From Campylobacterales bacterium (GTDB lineage: Bacteria; Campylobacterota; Campylobacteria; Campylobacterales; Sulfurimonadaceae), in assembly GCA_024280035.1 (NCBI GenBank), contig JAJRQV010000072.1:1-46193 (forward strand): a stretch of DNA of 46,193 nucleotides, read 5' to 3'. Below the pieces are notes generated by a model. The model was not told the origin of the DNA. It saw only the letters and a program-made list of their open reading frames with translations, and made no database searches. Made by a program: the position numbers and the translations under genes. Below, in pieces: positions 15,796-29,972 of this stretch (within the stretch, counting starts at the first letter, position 1; each line of letters begins with the position of its first letter).

Positions 15796-15837
15796 TTTTA
15801 AAAATGTGATAATTACTTGATGTAAAACTGTTATAAT
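15796..15837 (+). promoter_or_regulatory. Promoter and candidate operator of the response-regulator gene
   Basis: The 17-mer TTTTAAAAATGTGATAA (15796-15812) is followed after 19 nt by TATAAT (15832-15837), 31 bp before the ATG of the response regulator. The same 17-mer with one difference (A to G) and the same 19-nt spacing to TATAAT occurs upstream of the efflux operon at 24530-24571. The -10 hexamer is convincing; a regulator-binding role for the 17-mer is inferred. Confidence 0.6.
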
Positions 15838-15868: not shown

Positions 15869-16633
15869 ATGGCTCACGAAAAGATTCTAATCGTTGAAGA
15901 TGACGAGGTTACCTCTTTACATCTAAAAATGGCACTTCCAAAACTCTCTTATGAAGTTGTTTCTATTGCCCACGACACTTTTCAAGCACGTAATAAGATA
16001 AAAATCTATGAACCTGATTTAATCTTACTGGACATCTCTTTAGAAGATGAAACTGATGGTATTAACTTAGCAACTTATATTAAAGACAAACATAATATCC
16101 CTTATATCTACTTAACCTCTCATAGTGAAGATGAGATACTTGATGAGGCGAAGATAACAGAACCTTATGGTTATATTGTAAAACCTTTTGATCCTAAAAG
16201 TCTTCATTCTACTATTCAAATGGCTCTGTATAAATTTCAAGAAGAGCACAAATTAAAAGAGAATGTAAGTGACCTAGAAGCCAAACGTGAACACTTAGAA
16301 AAACTGCTTTATAGCAAAAAAGTTTCAGATAAACCTCTGGTTCCTTTTGCAGGTGAATACCATCTTGATATTAGTACTTGTGAAACATTTTATCAAAACT
16401 CAAAAATCAAACTCACAAAAAAAGAGAATGCTTTTATTCGTATTTTAGTTTCTCAATTAGGACAGGTAGTGAGTTTTGAACAAGCCATGAATTATGTATG
16501 GGAAGATGAAGGTGCTACAGAAAACAGTGTTCGAACCTTAGTATGGAGATTACGAAAAAAACTTCCTTCTGACATTATTAATAATGCCTCAGGAATGGGT
16601 TATTATATTGACGCGGCAGATTCAGCAGAATAA
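15869..16633 (+). CDS. OmpR-type response regulator
   Basis: A 254-residue regulator. The receiver domain (about 1-120) has the acidic pair in VEDDEVTS, phospho-acceptor Asp in LILLDISLED, Thr/Ser in YLTSHSED and Lys in YIVKPFD. After a helical linker, the C-terminal winged helix reads LTKKENAFIRILVSQLGQVV, then VRTLVWRLRKKLP and GMGYYIDA, typical of OmpR/PhoB DNA-binding domains. AAGGAT lies just before the ATG. It converges with a hybrid histidine kinase 26 bp away, a plausible partner although the kinase is in the opposite orientation. Confidence 0.93.
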   Translation: MAHEKILIVEDDEVTSLHLKMALPKLSYEVVSIAHDTFQARNKIKIYEPDLILLDISLEDETDGINLATYIKDKHNIPYIYLTSHSEDEILDEAKITEPYGYIVKPFDPKSLHSTIQMALYKFQEEHKLKENVSDLEAKREHLEKLLYSKKVSDKPLVPFAGEYHLDISTCETFYQNSKIKLTKKENAFIRILVSQLGQVVSFEQAMNYVWEDEGATENSVRTLVWRLRKKLPSDIINNASGMGYYIDAADSAE

Positions 16634-16659: not shown

Positions 16660-19278
16660 TTATAATAATTCTGCCATAATTTGTTCCATCTCATCTAAGG
16701 CTGTTTTATAATCAAAAGCAGCCTCTTCATGCCGCGCAGCCAACTCCATAGACTTTGCTAAAACTTCTAAATTTTCAAATCTAAAGTTTGCAGATGAACC
16801 CTTAATAGAATGTGCTTCTAAGGATATTTTCTTATACTCTTTTTGATCCACAGCTGAAGAAAGAATAGGAAATGATTTTTTCATTTTGTCCATAAAGGTT
16901 TGAAGCAAGAGTCTAATCTCATTTTCATCTAACATTAACTCCTCTTTTAGGTGGCTTAAGTCAATTTTACTTGAAGAAAAGTTCTCTGGTATTATCTCTT
17001 TTTCTACACTACTGTGTTCTTCCAGATACTTCTGTAAAATGGCTTCAAACTCTTTAATAACAAGAGGTTTTCCTAGAAATCCATCATGCCCAAAATTAAA
17101 CTCTTCAGCCTCAGTCACATCAGCACTTAGACCAATAATAGGGGTATGTTTTTTATGCTCTTTTTTCTCATACATTAAGATATCTTTTGTGGCTTCTGTT
17201 CCATCTTTAACGGGCATCTGTTTATCCATAAAAATCAGATCAAAAGAGGCTATTTTAAAAGTCTGAACAGCCTCCAATCCATCTGAAGCAATATAATAAC
17301 TCAAGCCATATCTTTCTAAAATGATTTTAATAAACTCTTGATTAGCAACATTGTCTTCAGCCACTAAAACATGCCCATTAAAACGTCTTTGTTTATACTC
17401 TTGTACATATTTTTCATCATCTTGTGGAGTCATATGCAAGGCTTCAATAAAGGCGTGATACATCTTTTCACAATAAATTGGATAAACAAGACTGGTTATA
17501 TTTTTATCATTATCATAGGTCTTTTTAGGGGAACGAAGAAGAGCTATACTAGGAACATCTAAGCCTCTAATCGTTTCTATATCTTCATCTGTACTGTCCA
17601 TAAAAAAGAGTAAATCATAATCTGTCTCATCTAAGGTCTTAATACAAAACGAATTTAGATTAAAGGCATCAAAATATTGACGAAGATAAATGATTTCATT
17701 TTTATTATGACTACAAAACAGGGCAATACGAAGTTTCTTAAAAGGCGTAGGGTCAAAAGGAAAACTTTTAATATGAACGGGTTCATCGGCTTGAAAGTTA
17801 AACTCAAAGATACTTCCTTTTTCAACACCTTTTGTATAAGTAATGCTTCCTCCCATATGTTCAGCCAAATCTTTTGAAATTGATAAACCTAAACCTGTAC
17901 CTCCTTCAGTATCTCGATCTTGTTTAAAGGCATCAAATAAAATATTTTCATCACTAACGCCTCGACCATTATCACATATACGTATATTTACTCTCTCATT
18001 TTCATAACTAATACGTACATTAATTTCTCCCCCTTCAGGAGTAAATTTGACGGCATTAGAAAAAAGGTTAGAAAACACCTGTTTAATTCGTAAAGGGTCA
18101 GCAATCAATTCATACGGCATTTTAGGATCAATAAAAGAGCTAATAAAAATACTTTTTGCATAAGCATCCTGAGAAAACAGCTCTAAAACATATGCAAACT
18201 CATCATGCGGATTAAATATTTTTTTATCAATACTAAAGGCACCACTTCGAAGTTTTGAAAAGTCTAAGATATCATTAATAATACCTAAAAGACTCTGACC
18301 ACTATCATTAATAATTTTTAGATAAGAAGCATGGCGAGCATTACTTTCTTCTTCAAGTAAGATAGAAACAAATCCTAAAATGGCATTTAAAGGGGTTCTG
18401 ATTTCATGTGACATTGATGAGAGAAATAGTTCCTTAGCCTTTGAAGCAGCCAAGGCAGCCTGACGTGTTTCAATAAGTGTTGTCACCTCATAACCAATGG
18501 CAATAAATTCTGTTTTTTCTTTAATGGGATCAATCATTGAAATCACTGTAATATCTAAATAGTATGATTTCCCCTCTTTACTTAGGTTTTGAACCTGCCC
18601 TTTAAATATCTGCTCTTTTTCTAAGGTTTCACTCATTTCTTTGTAAAAAGTTTGGGGGGTATCAGGATGTTTAATAATAAAATGTGAATTTCCAAGAAGC
18701 TCATCTTGCGTGTAACCACTAATCTTACAAAAGTTTTTATTCACATGAGTAATCGTTCCCGATATATCTGTTTTAAAAACAATAGCTGACTCATCTAAGG
18801 CTTTTTTATACTCATTAAGAAGTTGTATATTTTTCTCAATTAATAGCTCTTTTTGATAGATGGTATCAGTATAGAGTTTTAAAACACCCGCAAAGTTAGC
18901 ATCAAAAACAAAAGATATTTCATCAAAAAGTTCTTTAGAATTGATATTAACATCATAAGAAAAATCAATGACTGCACGACGAAAATGACTACAAATTGTA
19001 AAAAGTTCATTTGCCGTGAAATCTCTATTTTTCAAATAAATCAAGAGTTCATGCATTACAGGGCAGTCGCCTAATTCTTTTGTTTTTCTAATAACATCCA
19101 TAAAATAATCAAACACGCCCGAGGCATAATATTCACAAAAATATCGACTGTCCACATCATGCAGAGCTAAGATAGCCTTAGGTTCATCATACTGCACCCA
19201 CTGCTTTAATATTTTTATCTTATTTTTTTCAAAAATTTTGACATTATTTTGGACTTCAACAAGTAAAGAGTTTTTCAT
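16660..19278 (-). CDS. Hybrid sensor histidine kinase with PAS, REC and Hpt domains
   Basis: An 872-residue protein without clear membrane helices, probably cytosolic. Order: an all-helical N-terminal region of unknown type (about 1-145), a PAS domain (GTITHVNKNFCKISGYTQDE), HisKA with H-box SHEIRTPLNAILGF, HATPase with N-box SNLFSNAVKFT and glycine box GGTGLGLSIS, a divergent receiver-like region, a true receiver (VAEDNVANQEF; phospho-Asp in LIFMDKQMPVKDG) and a C-terminal Hpt domain with LEAHSIKGSSANF. This is a full phosphorelay in one chain, so it likely needs a separate response regulator; the convergent OmpR-type regulator is the nearest candidate. Confidence 0.93.
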   Translation of the reverse strand: MKNSLLVEVQNNVKIFEKNKIKILKQWVQYDEPKAILALHDVDSRYFCEYYASGVFDYFMDVIRKTKELGDCPVMHELLIYLKNRDFTANELFTICSHFRRAVIDFSYDVNINSKELFDEISFVFDANFAGVLKLYTDTIYQKELLIEKNIQLLNEYKKALDESAIVFKTDISGTITHVNKNFCKISGYTQDELLGNSHFIIKHPDTPQTFYKEMSETLEKEQIFKGQVQNLSKEGKSYYLDITVISMIDPIKEKTEFIAIGYEVTTLIETRQAALAASKAKELFLSSMSHEIRTPLNAILGFVSILLEEESNARHASYLKIINDSGQSLLGIINDILDFSKLRSGAFSIDKKIFNPHDEFAYVLELFSQDAYAKSIFISSFIDPKMPYELIADPLRIKQVFSNLFSNAVKFTPEGGEINVRISYENERVNIRICDNGRGVSDENILFDAFKQDRDTEGGTGLGLSISKDLAEHMGGSITYTKGVEKGSIFEFNFQADEPVHIKSFPFDPTPFKKLRIALFCSHNKNEIIYLRQYFDAFNLNSFCIKTLDETDYDLLFFMDSTDEDIETIRGLDVPSIALLRSPKKTYDNDKNITSLVYPIYCEKMYHAFIEALHMTPQDDEKYVQEYKQRRFNGHVLVAEDNVANQEFIKIILERYGLSYYIASDGLEAVQTFKIASFDLIFMDKQMPVKDGTEATKDILMYEKKEHKKHTPIIGLSADVTEAEEFNFGHDGFLGKPLVIKEFEAILQKYLEEHSSVEKEIIPENFSSSKIDLSHLKEELMLDENEIRLLLQTFMDKMKKSFPILSSAVDQKEYKKISLEAHSIKGSSANFRFENLEVLAKSMELAARHEEAAFDYKTALDEMEQIMAELL

Positions 19279-19361
19279 AAGGCTTACTATAACAAAATTT
19301 TTCTTTTAAGTGTATCTTAGCTACAATAAAAAACTTTGACTGTGGGGGTGTGGTACATTAT

Positions 19362-21287
19362 ATGATTAAGTACTTTTTATCTTTTCTTTTTATCTGTGCC
19401 TCTCTTATAGCACATGATGAGCTCTCCTATAATTTATCATATTTAAGTGATAACACTAAAAAGCTTACTATAGACACTGTTCAAAATAAGAAATTTATTT
19501 CTAGTAATAGTAAAATGTTAAACCTAGGAATCACCAATAGTCCTCACTGGTTTAAACTTAAGTTTACCCTCTCTAATAAAGAACCCGTACACAGCTGGTG
19601 GCTGAAGATTGCCTATCCGCCTCTTGATTATATAGATGTGTATCTTTATGATGAAAACAACACCCAAATCTCTTCAGCATATACAGGTGAGTTACGTCCT
19701 TTTAAAGATAGAAGTGTAGCTGACCCTGCTTTTATTGAAGAGTTACAGCTTAGGCATGAAGGTAACTACACCCTGTATCTTAGAATTCAGACCGAAGGTG
19801 CCCTGCAAGTTCCTATAAAAATTATTAATTCAAATAAATTAATTAAAGAGCAATACCGCCCTATTCTTCTCTCTGGGCTTTATTATGGTCTGTTTATTAT
19901 TATCTTACTTTACAATATCATTTTATATTTCTACACAAGAGATAAGAACTATCTTTTATATATTGCCTTTGTTACTGTATTTGTTTTTTACCAACTCTCT
20001 TTAGATGGTATTGGAATAGCCTTTATCTGGGGAGATTATCCATGGATTATCCATAATGCTTCTCCCTTGGGTGCCTCAGGGTTTGCTATTCTTGCCATTG
20101 TATTTGCACGTAGTTTTTTACATACGTATAAATACAAGACCTTAGATAAGGTCTTAAAAATTCTTTTGTACTTAACCTATGGTATTTTAATCGCAGTTTT
20201 TATTTTTCCTTATCATTATGTTATTCAATCCATTGGAGCCTTTGCTATTATTGTTCCTTTTGTTCTTATCTTTTCTGGTTTTACTGCCTTAAAAGATGGT
20301 TATAGACCTGCACGTTTTTATGTTTTAGGTTGGGTTATGTTTCTTTTAGGCTGTATTTTCTTTTCACTTAATAAGTTTGCTATTATTGGCGGTTTTGAGC
20401 TTATGAGTAGAGCCATGCAAATTGGTTCTGCTATTGAGATGATTCTCTTATCTTGGGCATTAGGCGATAGAATTAAATCCATTAGAGATGAGTATTTAAT
20501 TAAATCAAATGAACTCAATAAGACCTTACAGCAACAAGTTAAGGTAAGTTTACTAAAAGAGCGTCAAAAAGATAAGATGATTATTCAACAATCTCGTCTT
20601 GCTGCCTTAGGAGAGATGATTGAACAAATTGCGCATCAATGGAGACAACCCCTTAATACACTAGCGCTAATTAACCAAAACCTCTATTTTAAATATAAAC
20701 TGGAATCTTTTAATGAAGAAGAGTTTGACAAGGCGCATGACCAGATCAATGAAAACTTGCAATATATGTCTCAAACCATTGATGATTTCAGAGGTTTTTA
20801 CAAAAAAGATCCTCAAAAAGAGAGTTATAATATTGAAGATGTCATCCACTCTTCGGTCTCAATCTCAGAATCCATGATAAAGTATGCAAAAATAAATATT
20901 TCAATCAATAGTAAGGCAGACTGTGTTGTTACTAATATTAGAAATGAACTGATGCAAGTAATTATGAACCTTATTAAAAATGCACATGATGCATTAATTG
21001 AAAACAAAATAGAAAATAGACAGATTAGTTTTGATATTTTTCAAAAAGAGAATAAGGTGTATCTCTGTATTGAAGATAATGCAGGGGGAATTTCTGAGAA
21101 AATCATAGAGAAGATTTTTAACCCATATTTCACAACAAAATCAAAAGAGACAGGAACAGGCTTAGGTCTGTATATGTCAAAGTCAATTATTCAAGAACAT
21201 ATGAAGGGTACGATTGAGGCAGAAAACACTAAAGAAGGTGCACGTTTCACCATTATCTTACCTCAGGCTAAACCAACCGTTACTTAA
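19362..21287 (+). CDS. 7TMR-DISM sensor histidine kinase
   Basis: A 641-residue kinase. A signal peptide (MIKYFLSFLFICASLIAH) leads into a periplasmic 7TMR-DISM extracellular domain (NSPHWFKLKFTL, then WWLKIAYPPLDYIDVYLYDE), seven membrane helices (about residues 170-370), and a kinase module with H-box LGEMIEQIAHQWRQPLNTL, N-box MNLIKNAHDA and glycine box TGTGLGLYMS. The HQWRQPL form of H-box is frequent in Campylobacterota. A GTG at 19350 is an alternative start, but ATG at 19362 gives the proper signal peptide. The 83-bp divergent gap to the hybrid kinase may carry both promoters. No dedicated response regulator is adjacent on this strand. Confidence 0.9.
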   Translation: MIKYFLSFLFICASLIAHDELSYNLSYLSDNTKKLTIDTVQNKKFISSNSKMLNLGITNSPHWFKLKFTLSNKEPVHSWWLKIAYPPLDYIDVYLYDENNTQISSAYTGELRPFKDRSVADPAFIEELQLRHEGNYTLYLRIQTEGALQVPIKIINSNKLIKEQYRPILLSGLYYGLFIIILLYNIILYFYTRDKNYLLYIAFVTVFVFYQLSLDGIGIAFIWGDYPWIIHNASPLGASGFAILAIVFARSFLHTYKYKTLDKVLKILLYLTYGILIAVFIFPYHYVIQSIGAFAIIVPFVLIFSGFTALKDGYRPARFYVLGWVMFLLGCIFFSLNKFAIIGGFELMSRAMQIGSAIEMILLSWALGDRIKSIRDEYLIKSNELNKTLQQQVKVSLLKERQKDKMIIQQSRLAALGEMIEQIAHQWRQPLNTLALINQNLYFKYKLESFNEEEFDKAHDQINENLQYMSQTIDDFRGFYKKDPQKESYNIEDVIHSSVSISESMIKYAKINISINSKADCVVTNIRNELMQVIMNLIKNAHDALIENKIENRQISFDIFQKENKVYLCIEDNAGGISEKIIEKIFNPYFTTKSKETGTGLGLYMSKSIIQEHMKGTIEAENTKEGARFTIILPQAKPTVT

Positions 21288-22456: not shown

Positions 22457-23926
22457 CTATTCTGGAATTAACGTCCAACCTGGTTTAAGCTGAGCTTTCC
22501 AAAGGAATAGGTGGTGAAGGATATGTTTAATCCAGTGACCAGCAAGACCAATTTCACCAAAGGTATAGTCTGTATCACGACCTGTACCTGGGTATTTTTC
22601 GAAGTCAGGAACAACAGGATAAACTGTCATAGCTGCTGCAGTTCCAGTGAAAACACCTTTACCTGCTGATGCAACACAGGCTGCACCCATATCTGCCATA
22701 GATGCTTCATGTAAGTGAGCATCTTCACCCTTAGTCATAAGGTCACATACTGAGTGTGCAACCGCTTTACCGATAATACCTGAAGGCATACCTGTACGTG
22801 GAGGAGTTGGATTAATTGGAGTTCCATTTGGAGAACTCATTGGTTTAGAGATAAGGTGTGGAGGTGCAAATGCAATACCAGCAGCAAACATATTTTTGTA
22901 TGTAGGATTTTGGTAAGTTTTAGGCCAATCTGATGCTTTCCAGTTTTCATAAGCACCCGCACCGTAGTTAGCATCCACTTTCATGAAACCATTTGGAGCA
23001 AAAACAGTTGAAGTAATATCTTCACCTGCTTTATCAAATGCTTTAATACCTACACCCGCAAATGGTGGAATAAGCATTGCAAAGTCAAAAGTTTCTTGAC
23101 CTGTAGTACCATCAAGAAGTTCATAATCAATTGAACCTGATTCTACTTTAGAAACGTGTGCACCAATCATCCAGTCAACATTTCTTTCAGCAAAAAGAGA
23201 CTCAGCAAATAGTTTAGAACTTACTGCATATCCGCCAACTTTCATATGAAGCCCACCCATACCAAAATCACCTAAGAATGATTCGTTAGAAATCCATTTT
23301 ATATCAGCCATATCACGAACACCCGCTTTGTTCAGTTCATGTTCAATGTTAAAGATGTACTCAAAAGCAGCACCTTGACATGTACACATACCGTGACCTG
23401 TACCGATTAAGAATTTCTGACGTTCGCCAGCTTTCATTTTTTCGATAGCTTTTGTTAACTCTTCACTTGCGTGAACAGCATGATCAGCTGTACATACAGA
23501 AACGGTATGCTCACCAAGACCATTAGCATCACCAAGACCTGGAGTTGCAGCAAAGTTAAGTTTAGGACCTGTTGCATTAACAATGTAATCATATGTTAAA
23601 TCTTCAGTTTCACCTGCTTTACCTTGACCTGTATACTCAATAGTAACAAAAGGAGTATCTGAATCAGCATTTCCTTCTGGGTTTAAAGATTTAGCTAAAG
23701 CTTGTTTATAAGTAATTCCTGCTTTTTTGTATACAGGGTCAAGGTCAAAAGTAACCTCTTCTTTACTCATTTGTCCAACACCAACCCAAATGTTTGATGG
23801 AATCCAGTTCCATTTTGCGTTTGGTGTTACAACGACTACTTCATGATTAGAACCTAACCATTTTGCAGCAAACGTAGCTGTCGTGTGTCCAGCCACACCA
23901 CCGCCAAGTACTATTAATCTTGCCAT
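22457..23926 (-). CDS. sqr: Sulfide:quinone oxidoreductase family flavoprotein
   Basis: A 489-residue FAD-dependent enzyme of the SQR/flavocytochrome c sulfide dehydrogenase group. The N-terminus IVLGGGVAGHTTATF is the FAD dinucleotide fold; IVNATGPKLNF is the second FAD motif; GHGMCTCQGAAFEY carries the redox-active Cys region, and further Cys residues occur in VSVCTADHAVH and MGAACVASAG. The C-terminal HHLFLWKAQLKPGWTLIPE is amphipathic and suits monotopic membrane binding at the quinone site. It oxidises sulfide and passes electrons to quinone. Which SQR type (I-VI) is not decided here. AAAAGGAGTAGAT precedes the ATG, a very strong ribosome-binding site, fitting high expression. A 54-aa gene follows. 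Confidence 0.88.
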   Translation of the reverse strand: MARLIVLGGGVAGHTTATFAAKWLGSNHEVVVVTPNAKWNWIPSNIWVGVGQMSKEEVTFDLDPVYKKAGITYKQALAKSLNPEGNADSDTPFVTIEYTGQGKAGETEDLTYDYIVNATGPKLNFAATPGLGDANGLGEHTVSVCTADHAVHASEELTKAIEKMKAGERQKFLIGTGHGMCTCQGAAFEYIFNIEHELNKAGVRDMADIKWISNESFLGDFGMGGLHMKVGGYAVSSKLFAESLFAERNVDWMIGAHVSKVESGSIDYELLDGTTGQETFDFAMLIPPFAGVGIKAFDKAGEDITSTVFAPNGFMKVDANYGAGAYENWKASDWPKTYQNPTYKNMFAAGIAFAPPHLISKPMSSPNGTPINPTPPRTGMPSGIIGKAVAHSVCDLMTKGEDAHLHEASMADMGAACVASAGKGVFTGTAAAMTVYPVVPDFEKYPGTGRDTDYTFGEIGLAGHWIKHILHHLFLWKAQLKPGWTLIPE

Positions 23927-24119
23927 ATCTACTCCTTTTGATTGTCTATATATATTTAAAAATTATAATTAATATTTGTTTTAAATATTACAGCTCACTA
24001 GAGACTATTATAGTCAAAGTAATATTAAAAATTTATCATGATATTAATATTTATAATAGGAGAGAGTTTTTTGGGAGATATGTTAATTTATGTAACAGTT
24101 TGAAGGCTTTTAGCAGGGA

Positions 24120-24509: not shown

Positions 24510-24579
24510 TTATCACATTTTGAAGCTTATTTTAAAAGTGTGATAAGTTTGAGATAGATAAAGGTTATAATTTATCACA
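24510..24579 (+). promoter_or_regulatory. Efflux operon promoter with three TTATCACA-type sites
   Basis: TATAAT at 24566-24571 is a -10 box 25 bp before the ATG. TTATCACA occurs at 24510-24517 and 24572-24579, and inverted as TGTGATAA at 24539-24546. The third copy touches the -10 box; the inverted copy covers the -35 zone. The middle copy extends to TTTTAAAAGTGTGATAA (24530-24546), matching the response-regulator promoter in 16 of 17 bases and in spacing to the -10. The layout looks like repressor or regulator control of the efflux operon. GGAGAG before the ATG is the ribosome-binding site. Confidence 0.65.
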
Positions 24580-24596: not shown

Positions 24597-25937
24597 ATGA
24601 AAGTAATAATACCTATATTTTTTTATCTACTAACACTTAGCGCAGACCCCATAACCCTACCTCATGCCTTAGAGATTTTAAAACAACAAAATCTTGAAAT
24701 TAAGATAGCAGAGTATAACACTAAGTCTGCTGCGGAGTCTGAAGATATGGCTACAGCACAACATTATGGGCAGTTAAACTTTATTCAAAACATCTCACGT
24801 TCAGATGATGCAGGAAATGTTTTTGGTTTTAAACTCACCTCACGTGAAGCAAGTTTTAATGATTTTGGTTTTGCGGAATTTGGGCTTATTCCTATGGACC
24901 AACCTATACAAGGTCTAAATTACCCTGATACAAGAAACTTTTTTCAATCAAAGCTAAGGTATGAACTTCCTATCTACACAGGGAACAAAATCACAGCTTA
25001 TCAAGAGATGGCAAAAGGCATGAAACAGATTTCAAGCCTAGATGAGAAAAAGCAACTTCAAGAAAAAATTTATGAACTTAGAAAAAGTTATTATAATATG
25101 GCACTTCTGGAAAAATCATTAAAAAACTTACATCTTATTTTAAATAATATGAAAAGACTAGAAAACACTACTCAAAATATGATTGATGAGGGGTATGCAA
25201 AAAAGGTTGATATTTTAGAGGTGAAATCTAAAGAAGCTAATGTTAAACGTATTATTACAGAACTTGAAGCTAATAAAGAGTTACTGTATCACTACTTATC
25301 ATTCCTTCTTAATCAAGAGGTTAGTGAGATAACAACACCCTATACTAATCTTACTACACCAAATGTCTCAACCGAAGAAATTTTAAGTCAAAGCCTTGAT
25401 ATCCAAAAAGCACAAACAGCTCTAAATATTCATAAGAGTAAACTAATGGCTGAAGAGTCTCGTTACCTACCCACTATTGGAGCAATGGCTGAGATGCAAA
25501 CCGCTGATAACACTTTTCTTGGTGATGCTAGTGATCATAAATCTTATACTATTGGGGTGCAACTTAAATGGAATATTTTTGGTGGAGGGGGAGATAGTGC
25601 TGCTATCGAGCAAGCTCAAATAGACAGACTTAAGGGGCAAACCCAAGTTGAATTAGCAAAAAGAGGAATCGCTTTACGTATAAAAGAAATTCAGACAAAT
25701 ATCAGACTTGCTGATTCACAAATACAAAACCTTAAAATTGAGTTGAATTTAGCTCAGGCAATTTACAAAAACTATGAAGGACGTTACAAAGAGCAGTTAA
25801 TATCTATGAGTGATGTTATTATTAAACAAAGTATCTGGCTTGAAAATATTCTACAATTACTTAAAGCTAATAATGATCGTAACCAAGAGATTTTTGCCTT
25901 AGAAAAACTAGCACAATTAGGAGACACAAATGACTAA
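24597..25937 (+). CDS. TolC-family outer membrane efflux protein
   Basis: A 446-residue protein with a signal peptide (MKVIIPIFFYLLTLSADP) and the TolC/OEP layout: long helical hairpins with heptad character (residues about 140-240 and 340-440), each followed by strand-rich parts such as YTIGVQLKWNIFGGGGD. It would form the trimeric outer-membrane channel of a tripartite pump. It is first in an operon with a membrane-fusion protein and a two-part RND pump and overlaps the next gene by 8 bp. Drive comes from the TATAAT promoter with TTATCACA sites directly upstream. Confidence 0.9.
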   Translation: MKVIIPIFFYLLTLSADPITLPHALEILKQQNLEIKIAEYNTKSAAESEDMATAQHYGQLNFIQNISRSDDAGNVFGFKLTSREASFNDFGFAEFGLIPMDQPIQGLNYPDTRNFFQSKLRYELPIYTGNKITAYQEMAKGMKQISSLDEKKQLQEKIYELRKSYYNMALLEKSLKNLHLILNNMKRLENTTQNMIDEGYAKKVDILEVKSKEANVKRIITELEANKELLYHYLSFLLNQEVSEITTPYTNLTTPNVSTEEILSQSLDIQKAQTALNIHKSKLMAEESRYLPTIGAMAEMQTADNTFLGDASDHKSYTIGVQLKWNIFGGGGDSAAIEQAQIDRLKGQTQVELAKRGIALRIKEIQTNIRLADSQIQNLKIELNLAQAIYKNYEGRYKEQLISMSDVIIKQSIWLENILQLLKANNDRNQEIFALEKLAQLGDTND

Positions 25938-26712: not shown

Positions 26713-28302
26713 ATGTCAGATAACAAACCTTATGTCCCTACGGATTATGCAGGAAGGTTAGCTAAAACTTTTATACGTAGCCCACTTACCCCTTTATTAG
26801 GTATCTTTTTGCTAATTTTAGGTTACCTTTCATTGCAAATCATGCCCCGTGAAGAGAACCCTCAGATGGTTGTTTCTGGCTCAACAGTTATCGTGGCACT
26901 TCCAGGTGCTAATGCTAAAGAAGTTGAAAAAATCATTGTTCAACCTTTAGAGAGAAAACTTAAAGAGGTAAAAGGAATTGAGCATATCTATTCTATGGCA
27001 ATGGATAATGTTGCTGTTGTAAATGCAGCCTTTTTTATTGGTGAAGAGAAAGAAGACTCAAATCTAAAAGTATATGATAAGGTTCTTCAAAATATGGACA
27101 TCTTACCTAAGGGTGCGATGCAACCTATTATCAAACCTCTTGATATAGATGTTGATATTCCTATTGTTTCTGTTGCTTTTTATGCTAATAAAAAAGATAT
27201 GCCTGCTTCAGAACTTTATGATAAGGTAAAGGCTATTCAACACCATATTAATGGTCTTGATAATGTTGCAGTAACAGATGTAAAAGGTGGGCACAAGCAC
27301 CAATTCAACATCAAAGTTGATCTTTTTAAACTTTCAGGGTACAACCTCTCTATGGGGCAGATTCTTAAAGCTGTACAGGCCTTATCTTACTCCGTTCCTA
27401 CCATTAAGAATGAGACTAAAGATAATGAAATTGTAATGCTTGGCATTAAAAATGCAATTGATAAGGCAGAAGATATTGGTAATATTATCGTCTCTTCTTA
27501 TATGGGCTCACCCATCTATTTAAAACAAGTTGCCGAGGTTACAAAATCTTATGATATACAAAACTTCAAATCTGCTCAGATCTCTTTGCGAAATAAAGAC
27601 GGGAAATTCACTCCCTTACAAGAGCAGGTAACACTTACCGTCTCAAAACTTCAAGGAACCAATGCTGTTCTTATTTCAGATGCAGTAAAAGAAGAACTTG
27701 AAAAATATAAAGAAGAGATTAACAAGGTGGGTATCTCTTATGTTATTACAAGGAATGATGGTCACAGAGCAGATGAGGCAGTAAATGAGCTTGTTTACCA
27801 CTTAGTTTTATCTATTGTCATTATTGCTATTTTACTAGTTTTTGTTTTAGGATGGAGAGAGTCTTTAATTGTTACCTTTACTGTTCCTGCTATCTTAGCC
27901 GTTACCCTTTTTGTAGCGTATATTACAGGGCAAACCGTCAATAGGATTACACTTTTTGCCTTCTTATTAAGTTTAGGTCTGCTTGTGGATGCTGCTATTA
28001 TTGTCATTGAAAACATTCATAGACACTTTCATTCAAAAGAGGCTCAAACTATGAATACAGATGAGCTAATGATAATGGCGACTGATGAAGTGGGTCCACC
28101 TACAAACATTGCCACCTTAGCGATTATTTTAACTATGGTACCGATGGCATTTGTTGGTCAGATGATGGGACAGTTTATGAAACCTATTCCTGCTAATGTC
28201 CCAGTAGCTCTTGTTGCATCTTTGTTTATTGCTTATATTTTCACCCCTTATTTAGCAACACGTTTACTTAAAAAACCTCATCATAAAGAGGAGGAGCACT
28301 AA
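26713..28302 (+). CDS. RND efflux pump, N-terminal half (six helices)
   Basis: A 529-residue protein equal to the first half of an RND pump of about 1,050 residues. It has helix 1 (LTPLLGIFLLILGYLSLQIM), the first large periplasmic loop (LPGANAKEVEKIIVQPLERK; YDKVLQNMDILPKGAMQP), then helices 2-6 in the last 170 residues. The helix 4 proton-relay motif is LLVDAAIIVIENI: Asp426 matches AcrB Asp407, but the neighbouring Asp408 is Ala427. The protein stops just after helix 6 (TPYLATRLLKK), exactly where the internal repeat of RND pumps ends. GGAAGATCTT precedes the ATG. Its TAA shares one base with the next ATG (TAATG). Confidence 0.92.
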   Translation: MSDNKPYVPTDYAGRLAKTFIRSPLTPLLGIFLLILGYLSLQIMPREENPQMVVSGSTVIVALPGANAKEVEKIIVQPLERKLKEVKGIEHIYSMAMDNVAVVNAAFFIGEEKEDSNLKVYDKVLQNMDILPKGAMQPIIKPLDIDVDIPIVSVAFYANKKDMPASELYDKVKAIQHHINGLDNVAVTDVKGGHKHQFNIKVDLFKLSGYNLSMGQILKAVQALSYSVPTIKNETKDNEIVMLGIKNAIDKAEDIGNIIVSSYMGSPIYLKQVAEVTKSYDIQNFKSAQISLRNKDGKFTPLQEQVTLTVSKLQGTNAVLISDAVKEELEKYKEEINKVGISYVITRNDGHRADEAVNELVYHLVLSIVIIAILLVFVLGWRESLIVTFTVPAILAVTLFVAYITGQTVNRITLFAFLLSLGLLVDAAIIVIENIHRHFHSKEAQTMNTDELMIMATDEVGPPTNIATLAIILTMVPMAFVGQMMGQFMKPIPANVPVALVASLFIAYIFTPYLATRLLKKPHHKEEEH

Positions 28303-29972
28303 TGTTTAAAAAATTCGAAAATGCTGTTTATAATGGCTTAAATAGTAAAGGTAAAAAAACTTTTATTCTTTTAGGGACTCTTTTAGGTTTTATTTTATCA
28401 TTAATGATGATTCCTTCTGAACTTGTTTTAGCAAAGATGCTTCCGGGTAAGAACAGCGATACTTTTAATATTTATATTGACCTTCCAACGGGTTCATCAA
28501 TTGCTCAGACTCAAGTCGTTAGCAACTGTGTTGTTAATTATGTGCAACAAGAAAAAGATGTACGTGATACAGAGGTCTTTTTAGGAATGGGAAGCCCCTT
28601 AGACTTTGCTGGATTAATTAAAGGCTCTCAATTTAAAAACTCCGAAAATGTTGCAGAAATTGTCCTTAACTTAAGTCCAAAACACCATAGAAAAGAGCCT
28701 TCATACTTAATGGTTCAACGTATGCGTAATGTGATTCAAAAAGGCTGTGATATTAATGGTGCTAAAATATCTTTTGTTGAACCTCCTGCAGGGCCTCCTG
28801 TTATGGCAGCTATTGTTGCAGAAGTTTATGGTAATAATGCAGAAGGAATTCGTCACCTTGCTAAGAAAATTGAAAATGTTTTTTCACATACTAAAGGTCT
28901 TGTTGATATTGATATTATGCAAGATGACATTTATGATAAGTTTGAAGTAAAAGTTGACAGCATTAAGATTGCACGTTCAGGTCTAAATGTAAAACAAGTT
29001 AATGACATCTTATATCTCGCTTTTGAGGGCATGGAAATAGCCGTAAAAAATTCACCTATTTATGATGACCAGATTCCTATCTTTTTAACCCTTTCATCAA
29101 AAACAAAGGACTTTACGAACAAGAGTAAGATGGCAATTCAGTCAAAAATGGCATCTTTGAAACTAATGAATACACGGGGCATGATGGTTCCTATCACTGA
29201 AGTAGTTAGTATTTCTGCTGTTAAATCTAATCCAATGATTATGGCAAAAAACCTTCATCAGATGGTTAATGTTATGGCAGAAACAGATATGGTTTCTCAA
29301 GTTTATCCACTGATGGACGCACGTAATGAAATTATTAACACCTTTAGTGATGCGTATGAAATTTCGAAAATCGGTCTGTTTAATCTTGAACTTAAAGATA
29401 AAAAAACAGCAAAAGTGTACCAACTTATTTGGGATGGTGAGATGGAAGTCACTTTAGACACCTTTGTTGAATTAGGTGCTGCTTTTATTGCTGCACTCGT
29501 TTTAATATTTTTGCTAATGGTAGTGTATTACAAAAGTTTTAAACTCTCCGGTATTATTCTTATAGGAAGTTTTTTATCTATTATTGGCGTCATTGTAGGT
29601 CATTTTATTATGGATGTTTTTATTGAAGGAACCTTTTTCTTAACGGCAACCTCACTTATTGGTTTTATTGCTTTAATTGGGATTTCCTCACGTAATTCTC
29701 TTTTACTTATTGACTTTACAAAGTCTTTAATGATTGAGAAAGGAATGGGGCAAAAAGCGGCTATCGCCTTTGCTACGGCAACACGGGCTAAACCTATCTT
29801 CTTAACTGCTGTGGCTATTATCCTTGCGTCTACTCTACTCGCTTCTGATGCCGTATTTGGTGGTTTAGGGGTTTCTCTTATTTTTGGAACGATTGCAGCA
29901 GTAGTTGCCTCACTTATTGTTGTCCCAATTTTAATGGACAACAGTAATTTACAAGAAGAGTTTAATAAATAA
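28302..29972 (+). CDS. RND efflux pump, C-terminal half (six helices)
   Basis: A 556-residue protein that begins with a short cytoplasmic segment (MFKKFENAVYNGLN) and helix 7, then the second periplasmic loop (ISFVEPPAGPPVMAAIVAEV) and helices 8-12. The helix 10 position equivalent to AcrB Lys940 is Arg464 in GISSRNSLLLIDF. It starts in a different frame from the first half with a TAATG overlap, so translational coupling should give equal amounts. The two halves would have to assemble in the membrane. Fission of an ancestral single gene, or a frameshift at the junction, are the alternatives; the clean start and position at the domain boundary favour real fission. Substrate is unknown. Confidence 0.92.
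   Translation: MFKKFENAVYNGLNSKGKKTFILLGTLLGFILSLMMIPSELVLAKMLPGKNSDTFNIYIDLPTGSSIAQTQVVSNCVVNYVQQEKDVRDTEVFLGMGSPLDFAGLIKGSQFKNSENVAEIVLNLSPKHHRKEPSYLMVQRMRNVIQKGCDINGAKISFVEPPAGPPVMAAIVAEVYGNNAEGIRHLAKKIENVFSHTKGLVDIDIMQDDIYDKFEVKVDSIKIARSGLNVKQVNDILYLAFEGMEIAVKNSPIYDDQIPIFLTLSSKTKDFTNKSKMAIQSKMASLKLMNTRGMMVPITEVVSISAVKSNPMIMAKNLHQMVNVMAETDMVSQVYPLMDARNEIINTFSDAYEISKIGLFNLELKDKKTAKVYQLIWDGEMEVTLDTFVELGAAFIAALVLIFLLMVVYYKSFKLSGIILIGSFLSIIGVIVGHFIMDVFIEGTFFLTATSLIGFIALIGISSRNSLLLIDFTKSLMIEKGMGQKAAIAFATATRAKPIFLTAVAIILASTLLASDAVFGGLGVSLIFGTIAAVVASLIVVPILMDNSNLQEEFNK

Follow-up and report, generated by a model that had tools for sequence, protein, structure and literature searches.

Tandem TGTGATA repeats as predicted operators of a hybrid-kinase and response-regulator pair in a Sulfurimonadaceae genome

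The window analysed here is the whole 46,193-nucleotide stretch of a Campylobacterales contig of the family Sulfurimonadaceae. It contains a response regulator gene of the OmpR/PhoB type, a hybrid histidine kinase gene that converges on it, a gene for a flavoprotein resembling sulfide:quinone oxidoreductase (SQR), and an efflux operon with an outer-membrane efflux protein (OEP), a periplasmic adaptor of the HlyD type and an RND permease in two halves. The coordinates of the genes and of the promoter elements are given in Table 1.

Table 1. Genes and promoter features of the window
Feature	Position	Strand	Basis
Half-site 1 TGTGATAA, response-regulator promoter	15805..15812	+	Window rank 2 by the other-genera model
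Half-site 2 CTTGATGT, degenerate, 11 bp after half-site 1, regulator promoter	15816..15823	+	Spacing from relatives
Putative -10 box TATAAT of the regulator gene, 19 nt past half-site 1	15832..15837	+	
OmpR/PhoB-type response regulator, proposed binder	15869..16633	+	PF00072, PF00486, alignment, AlphaFold2
Cytosolic hybrid histidine kinase, proposed phosphodonor, convergent with the regulator	16660..19278	-	Pfam, hydropathy, adjacency, fold
SQR-like flavoprotein (sulfide:quinone-oxidoreductase-like)	22457..23926	-	PDB sequence match 3hyv, E 3.2e-38
Weak operator-like site and -10, SQR-like gene promoter	24007..24040	-	Score 13.7 vs 25.2 and 20.2; gap 20
TGTGATAA word 5' of the efflux operator	24510..24517	-	
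Half-site 1 TGTGATAA, efflux-operon tandem operator	24539..24546	+	Window rank 1, other-genera model
Half-site 2 TGAGATAG, degenerate, efflux operon, 11 bp downstream	24550..24557	+	
Putative -10 box TATAAT, efflux operon	24566..24571	+	
TGTGATAA word immediately past the efflux -10 box	24572..24579	-	
Outer-membrane efflux protein (TolC/OEP type), pump operon gene 1	24597..25937	+	PF02321
RND periplasmic adaptor, short, 249 aa	25930..26679	+	PF16576; TIGR01730 above cut-off
Split RND permease, N-terminal half	26713..28302	+	PF00873 positions 2-498
Split RND permease, C-terminal half	28302..29972	+	PF00873 positions 517-1016

The response regulator consists of a receiver, a long helix and a winged-helix DNA-binding domain. 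Its matches to PF00072 (6.1e-19) and PF00486 (Trans_reg_C, 3.8e-13) are both over the gathering cut-offs. The residues of the acidic pocket, the phosphorylatable aspartate and the lysine (D11, D12, D55 and K105) are invariant in 20 orthologs, and the recognition-helix region (ATENSVRTLVWRLR in most rows of the alignment) is strongly conserved among them. The AlphaFold2 model (mean pLDDT 84, pTM 0.54) has a long interdomain helix at residues 109-149. In the congener G001, the open frame that immediately precedes the regulator gene (L214 8198-8812) appears by eye to end in a Crp/Fnr-like helix-turn-helix.

The hybrid kinase has a predicted globin-like N-terminal domain followed by PAS, HisKA, HATPase_c, receiver and Hpt domains. 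It has no membrane-spanning segment by hydropathy, as no 19-residue window scores above 1.6. The kinase gene adjoins the regulator gene convergently in the spans of eight relatives (L212, L213, L214, L216, L219, L220, L223 and L225), and in L217 (G013) no hybrid-kinase ortholog lies directly beside the regulator. The first 160 residues (window 18796-19278, minus strand) match no Pfam family. Residues 1-145 are predicted to adopt a globin-like fold (mean pLDDT 81), and the VIA matches listed for this model are mostly globins, phycobiliproteins and RsbR-type domains. The best Foldseek match has a probability of 0.97 at E 0.34, with no match at E<=0.001, and VIA gives Z 12.7 to the RsbR N-domain 2bnl (2.8 A over 126), in a range, below about 13, that helical bundles can reach by chance. 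Two cysteines, C72 and C96, are kept in 18 of the 18 relatives found, and His40 is invariant in the relatives aligned; the alignment, A3, leaves out L239:69-2669, which is an aminopeptidase-like protein and not a kinase. The initial annotation had drawn a signalling block from 15.8 to 21.3 kb. Only the regulator and the hybrid kinase of this block are conserved. The 7TMR-DISM histidine kinase (19350-21287), which lies after the regulator block and before the pump, is missing from the three congeneric loci that cover this interval (L212, L213 and L214).

The RND permease of the efflux operon is split into two frames that overlap by 1 or 8 bases. The split is found in 12 of the 12 loci in which both halves were mapped (the window and 11 relatives), and it is therefore not a frameshift of this assembly. 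A literature search on the split RND pump found nothing relevant.

Similar elements precede the regulator gene and the efflux operon. Read directly from the sequence, each consists of TTTTAAAA[A/G]TGTGATAA, 19 nt and TATAAT, starting at 15796 and 24530. The initial annotation had reported that 15796-15812 and 24530-24546 match at 16 of 17 bases and that exactly 19 nt separate each from TATAAT, and both statements are correct. The full TTTTAAAA[A/G]TGTGATAA-N19-TATAAT pattern occurs in the window at these two places only, and the looser TTTTAAAARTGTGATAA-N17-21-TATAAT has two matches in the window against none in 100 dinucleotide-preserving shuffles. The organism's own genome (2.51 Mb, 107 contigs) has no mismatch-free match to the 17-mer other than the two window sites, and a single further match with one mismatch, within an open frame; two mismatches give 16 places, compared with 13 matches for the reversed control pattern. 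The hexamers 17 nt back from each TATAAT, ATAATT and ATAAGT, match TTGACA at only two of six positions, and a good -35 element is therefore lacking from both promoters. The efflux promoter has two additional TGTGATAA words on the opposite strand.

What is conserved is not the 17-bp element as initially described but a tandem of TGTGATA half-sites, the second on the same strand 11 bp further downstream, with the -10 box 19 nt past the first. The first TGTGATA is read as half of a tandem repeat because a second, degenerate half-site lies 11 bp on at both places; the tandems are TGTGATAATTA with CTTGATGT before the regulator and TGTGATAAGTT with TGAGATAG before the efflux operon. The TTTTAAAA half was rejected as belonging to the conserved element, as it is common to the two window sites only and is absent from the congeneric orthologous promoters examined. 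Pooling 94 upstream regions of relatives (29 regulator, 30 OEP, 30 SQR-like and, from this genus, 5 ccoG) gives 30 same-strand TGTGATA pairs with 11-bp spacing and 11 with 22-bp spacing; every other spacing up to 44 bp has four or fewer. The 29 regulator-ortholog regions contain 79 TGTGATA words with at most one mismatch (30 in shuffles) and 12 same-strand pairs spaced by 11 bp (0.1 in shuffles). OEP pairs spaced by 9 bp (6 of 22) may stem from TATAAT-like words. The 19-nt spacing to the -10 box is fixed at most sites and recurs in the regulator promoters of G001 (TAGAAT) and G004 (TACAAT). Some SQR-like promoters have three repeats that run into the putative -10 box, and N19 counts there are partly inflated because the third half-site can mimic a -10 box. 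The computed spacing spectra include the direct half-sites about 11 bp apart that mark OmpR/PhoB-family operators, and by analogy the TGTGATA tandem with its -10 spacing has the geometry of such operators, with binding predicted.

The element is concentrated at a few promoters within the genus. The six genomes of the genus, G000 (the organism's own) to G005, contain 16 exact matches to TGTGATA-N20-TANAAT and 4 to the reversed control pattern. Ten of the 16 precede the response regulator (G000, G001 and G004), the pump operon (G000 and G001) or ccoG (G000 to G004). Four of the other six (two in G001 and one each in G003 and G004) lie within open frames of more than 240 codons, the match in G002 resembles by sequence a counterpart of one of these, and the match on contig 87 of G000 (G000:C87:243-275) is 36 nt before an open frame that the end of the contig truncates. 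The initial annotation had allowed that the element might be a general promoter part carried by many unrelated genes, or that orthologous promoters might lack it. The ten matches at three target promoters speak against the former, and G001, in which the regulator and efflux promoters both keep the element at the identical 19-nt spacing, speaks against the latter. The OEP promoter of G004 has a shifted version of the site only. G003 carries the site at its ccoG promoter and has no clear site at the OEP promoter or in the 98 nt examined between the regulator gene and the contig end. G005 has no regulator ortholog (best match E 9.5e-13) and no exact match, and no such site was seen in its OEP and ccoG upstream regions. 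The own genome has a further site, G000:C17:132193-132225, 61 nt before an OmpA-family gene.

The distribution of sites in the family follows that of the regulator. Scoring models were made for this genus and for other genera, each group was scored with the other's model, and p values came from 200 shuffles. At p<=0.01 and with the regulator present, sites are found at 13/29 regulator, 7/22 OEP, 15/22 SQR-like and 5/23 ccoG promoters; genomes without the regulator have 1/8, 0/8 and 0/7 for OEP, SQR-like and ccoG. Target promoters have a site in 27 of 67 cases where the regulator is present versus 1 of 23 where it is absent (Fisher p 0.0013, not corrected for relatedness). Among neighbouring control genes 5 of 134 pass, versus 40 of 96 target promoters; among the five are the G001 hybrid-kinase gene and, in G017, a gene that lies upstream of the pump. 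Counts by genome are inflated by near-identical genomes; of the genera examined in the family, 10/16 (regulator), 5/14 (OEP), 10/14 (SQR-like) and 1/16 (ccoG) have passing sites. The other-genera model places the efflux site first in the window (25.2) and the regulator site second (20.2), with the next at 15.4. A stricter tandem pattern (at most one mismatch) has 10 matches in 298 genomes of the order, compared with 1 for the control. Seven are in the family, all before predicted targets (the efflux operon and ccoG of G000 and five SQR-like promoters), and three are in genomes of other families.

Judged from these promoter sequences, the most consistent predicted target across the family is the orthologs of the linked SQR-like gene, a gene that the initial annotation had not connected with the element. 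In named Sulfuricurvum, Sulfurimonas and related contigs all 9 SQR-like promoters and none of the 13 regulator promoters pass at p<=0.01; one of these contigs, L134, is by its length G018:C7 and is counted both here and in the cross-validated genome set. The regulator and SQR-like genes are within 11 kb in 17 of the 23 genomes that have both (hand count). No significant site is present at the regulator promoter in 16 of 29 orthologs. Predicted efflux control is patchy outside the genus, and 15 of the 22 OEP promoters in genomes with the regulator are without a site. All five passing ccoG promoters belong to this genus; ccoG was rejected as a family-wide target, with 0 of 18 regulator-bearing genomes outside the genus passing p<=0.01, and most ccoG upstream stretches there resemble coding sequence of the preceding gene.

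The repeated element is a real regulatory site, and the two copies in the window are very likely operators of the regulator encoded beside the first of them, acting in a phosphorelay with the hybrid kinase on a predicted regulon that includes the pump, ccoG and the SQR-like gene. The initial annotation had proposed one regulator for both promoters, possibly the response regulator acting on itself and on the pump. Computation established the repeat architecture, the -10 spacing, the conservation at these promoters, the rarity elsewhere and the absence from the regulator-less congener G005. The conservation, the rarity and G005 support the proposal, and we infer that this regulator binds the tandem repeats and has the hybrid kinase as its partner. 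The proposal also widens, as the sequences support a hybrid-kinase and response-regulator regulon larger than two promoters. The element is most likely the predicted site through which a signalling protein switches its own gene and a drug-efflux-type pump, and in related species it most likely also serves to switch an enzyme of the sulfide-oxidising type and a respiratory-enzyme assembly gene.

The proposed mechanism is as follows. Phosphate would travel from the kinase to the regulator by way of the kinase's receiver and Hpt domains, and dimers of the phosphorylated regulator would bind the repeats head-to-tail. Each operator would be a direct repeat of two TGTGATA-type half-sites at 11-bp spacing, at about -39 to -21 and so at the -35 position, with the putative -10 box 8 nt past the second half-site. 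The bound regulator would control its own gene and the OEP/HlyD/split-RND operon, with a wider regulon of ccoG in this genus and the SQR-like flavoprotein gene across the family. The usual effect at promoters with two half-sites is probably activation, which is preferred because of the position of the site and the absence of a -35 element. The predicted targets (SQR-like and ccoG) and the modelled globin-fold, two-cysteine sensor tentatively suggest a redox, sulfur or gas cue.

Other binders have to be weighed. Another OmpR-family response regulator of the same genome could bind the repeats, the adjacent regulator being merely a target; the regulator has 40 matches within the own genome, many through shared receiver or DNA-binding domains, so that a paralogue could use the same half-site, and G031, a genome 80% complete, keeps a site before OEP with no regulator ortholog found. 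This is unlikely, however, as the sites track this regulator across genomes, G005 has neither the regulator nor the sites, and the regulator gene itself carries a site and is linked to the SQR-like gene. TGTGA is also the CRP half-site, and a protein of the CRP/FNR family might bind such words as halves of an inverted repeat, a reading with which the apparent Crp-type helix-turn-helix upstream of the G001 regulator would agree. The CRP-type arrangement TGTGA-N6-TCACA was nevertheless rejected: the inward distance of 9 occurs in 0 of 94 regions (7-mer, at most one mismatch), versus 30 for the direct 11-bp spacing, and no gene of this kind was noticed beside the regulator in the window, which makes such a binder very improbable. 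Lower still is the probability of a general sigma-70 promoter part or of a coincidental match in AT-rich sequence. The element reaches the -35 position and adjoins a canonical -10 box, and many weak matches appear at two mismatches, but it is rare genome-wide and concentrated at the same genes, and the shuffle, genome and neighbouring-gene counts refute this reading.

The same regulator could also act with the opposite sign, covering the -35 and spacer region to repress, with the extra TGTGATAA past the efflux -10 box adding a block. The TGTGATAA words on both sides of the core efflux promoter are in keeping with repression, as are the triple repeats of some SQR-like promoters and the OEP regions of G007 and G024, which carry the repeats in reverse orientation. 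Repression may act at sites that run into the -10 box; as the usual effect it is less likely than activation, since the fixed 19-nt spacing and the poor -35 hexamers fit activation of the PhoB type better.

Binding of the TGTGATA tandem by this regulator would place the pair in a known mechanistic class. PAS, HisKA, HATPase, receiver and Hpt domains also make up the hybrid kinase ArcB, and the pair described here is like ArcB/ArcA of Escherichia coli in combining such a kinase with an OmpR-family regulator and in its respiration-related predicted targets. It differs in its TGTGATA half-site and in a kinase that has a predicted globin-like domain and no membrane anchor, and that scores 237.3 against the ArcB equivalog cut-off of 838. 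The pho-box half-site is TGTCATA, which TGTGATA resembles. The regulator scores 77.7 against the PhoB equivalog (TIGR02154, cut-off 296.2), and it differs from PhoB in having no phosphate genes among its predicted targets and in the long interdomain helix of its model. The multistep phosphorelay layout is shared with TorS/TorR and BarA-type systems. BarA (288.6) and TorS (280.2) are the best NCBIfam scores of the kinase, and the regulator scores 78.3 against TorR, all far below the cut-offs of 890, 676.5 and 275. According to the portions of PMC3798270 used here, ArcA operators have two to five direct repeats at 11 or 22 bp, the spacings also seen here, and are compared with those of PhoB and OmpR. 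PMC3348028 describes a PhoB dimer on direct repeats that overlaps the -35 region, as the tandem operator does here.

Mechanisms of this class are known, and the literature searched contained no account of this regulon. The open-licence literature consulted, including parts of PMC7952632 and PMC6682613, described neither the TGTGATA motif nor a two-component regulator acting on an sqr gene. Tentatively, the pair may be an undescribed phosphorelay of the Sulfurimonadaceae. Its cytosolic kinase, with a globin fold and two cysteines, would sense sulfide, persulfide, nitric oxide or the state of electron carriers, and the OmpR-type regulator would couple sulfide oxidation (SQR-like), assembly of cbb3 oxidase (ccoG) and efflux through the RND pump, which is naturally split. 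If so, an Arc-like control circuit would exist in a group where the best-studied species reportedly expresses respiratory enzymes in a mostly constitutive way. A 2019 review (PMC6682613) describes Sulfurimonas denitrificans as having respiratory donor and acceptor complexes whose expression seems, so far, to be mostly constitutive, and as having only 53 putative transcription factors. With an operator sequence, a regulator-kinase pair and short lists of targets, the regulation of sulfide oxidation becomes directly testable in the family, and the half-site can be used for annotating the regulon across it.

Tandem sites also occur elsewhere. The two genomes of genus g7 (L243 159-623 and L241 3325-3837) have them 33-47 nt before small genes, one of which encodes a chemoreceptor zinc-binding domain, and both genes are possible further targets. 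In G044, which belongs to another family, three TGTGACAA-NNN-TGTGA tandems of similar geometry are present on contig C1 near 1075152, 1081206 and 1167035. They may be the operator of another OmpR-type regulator.
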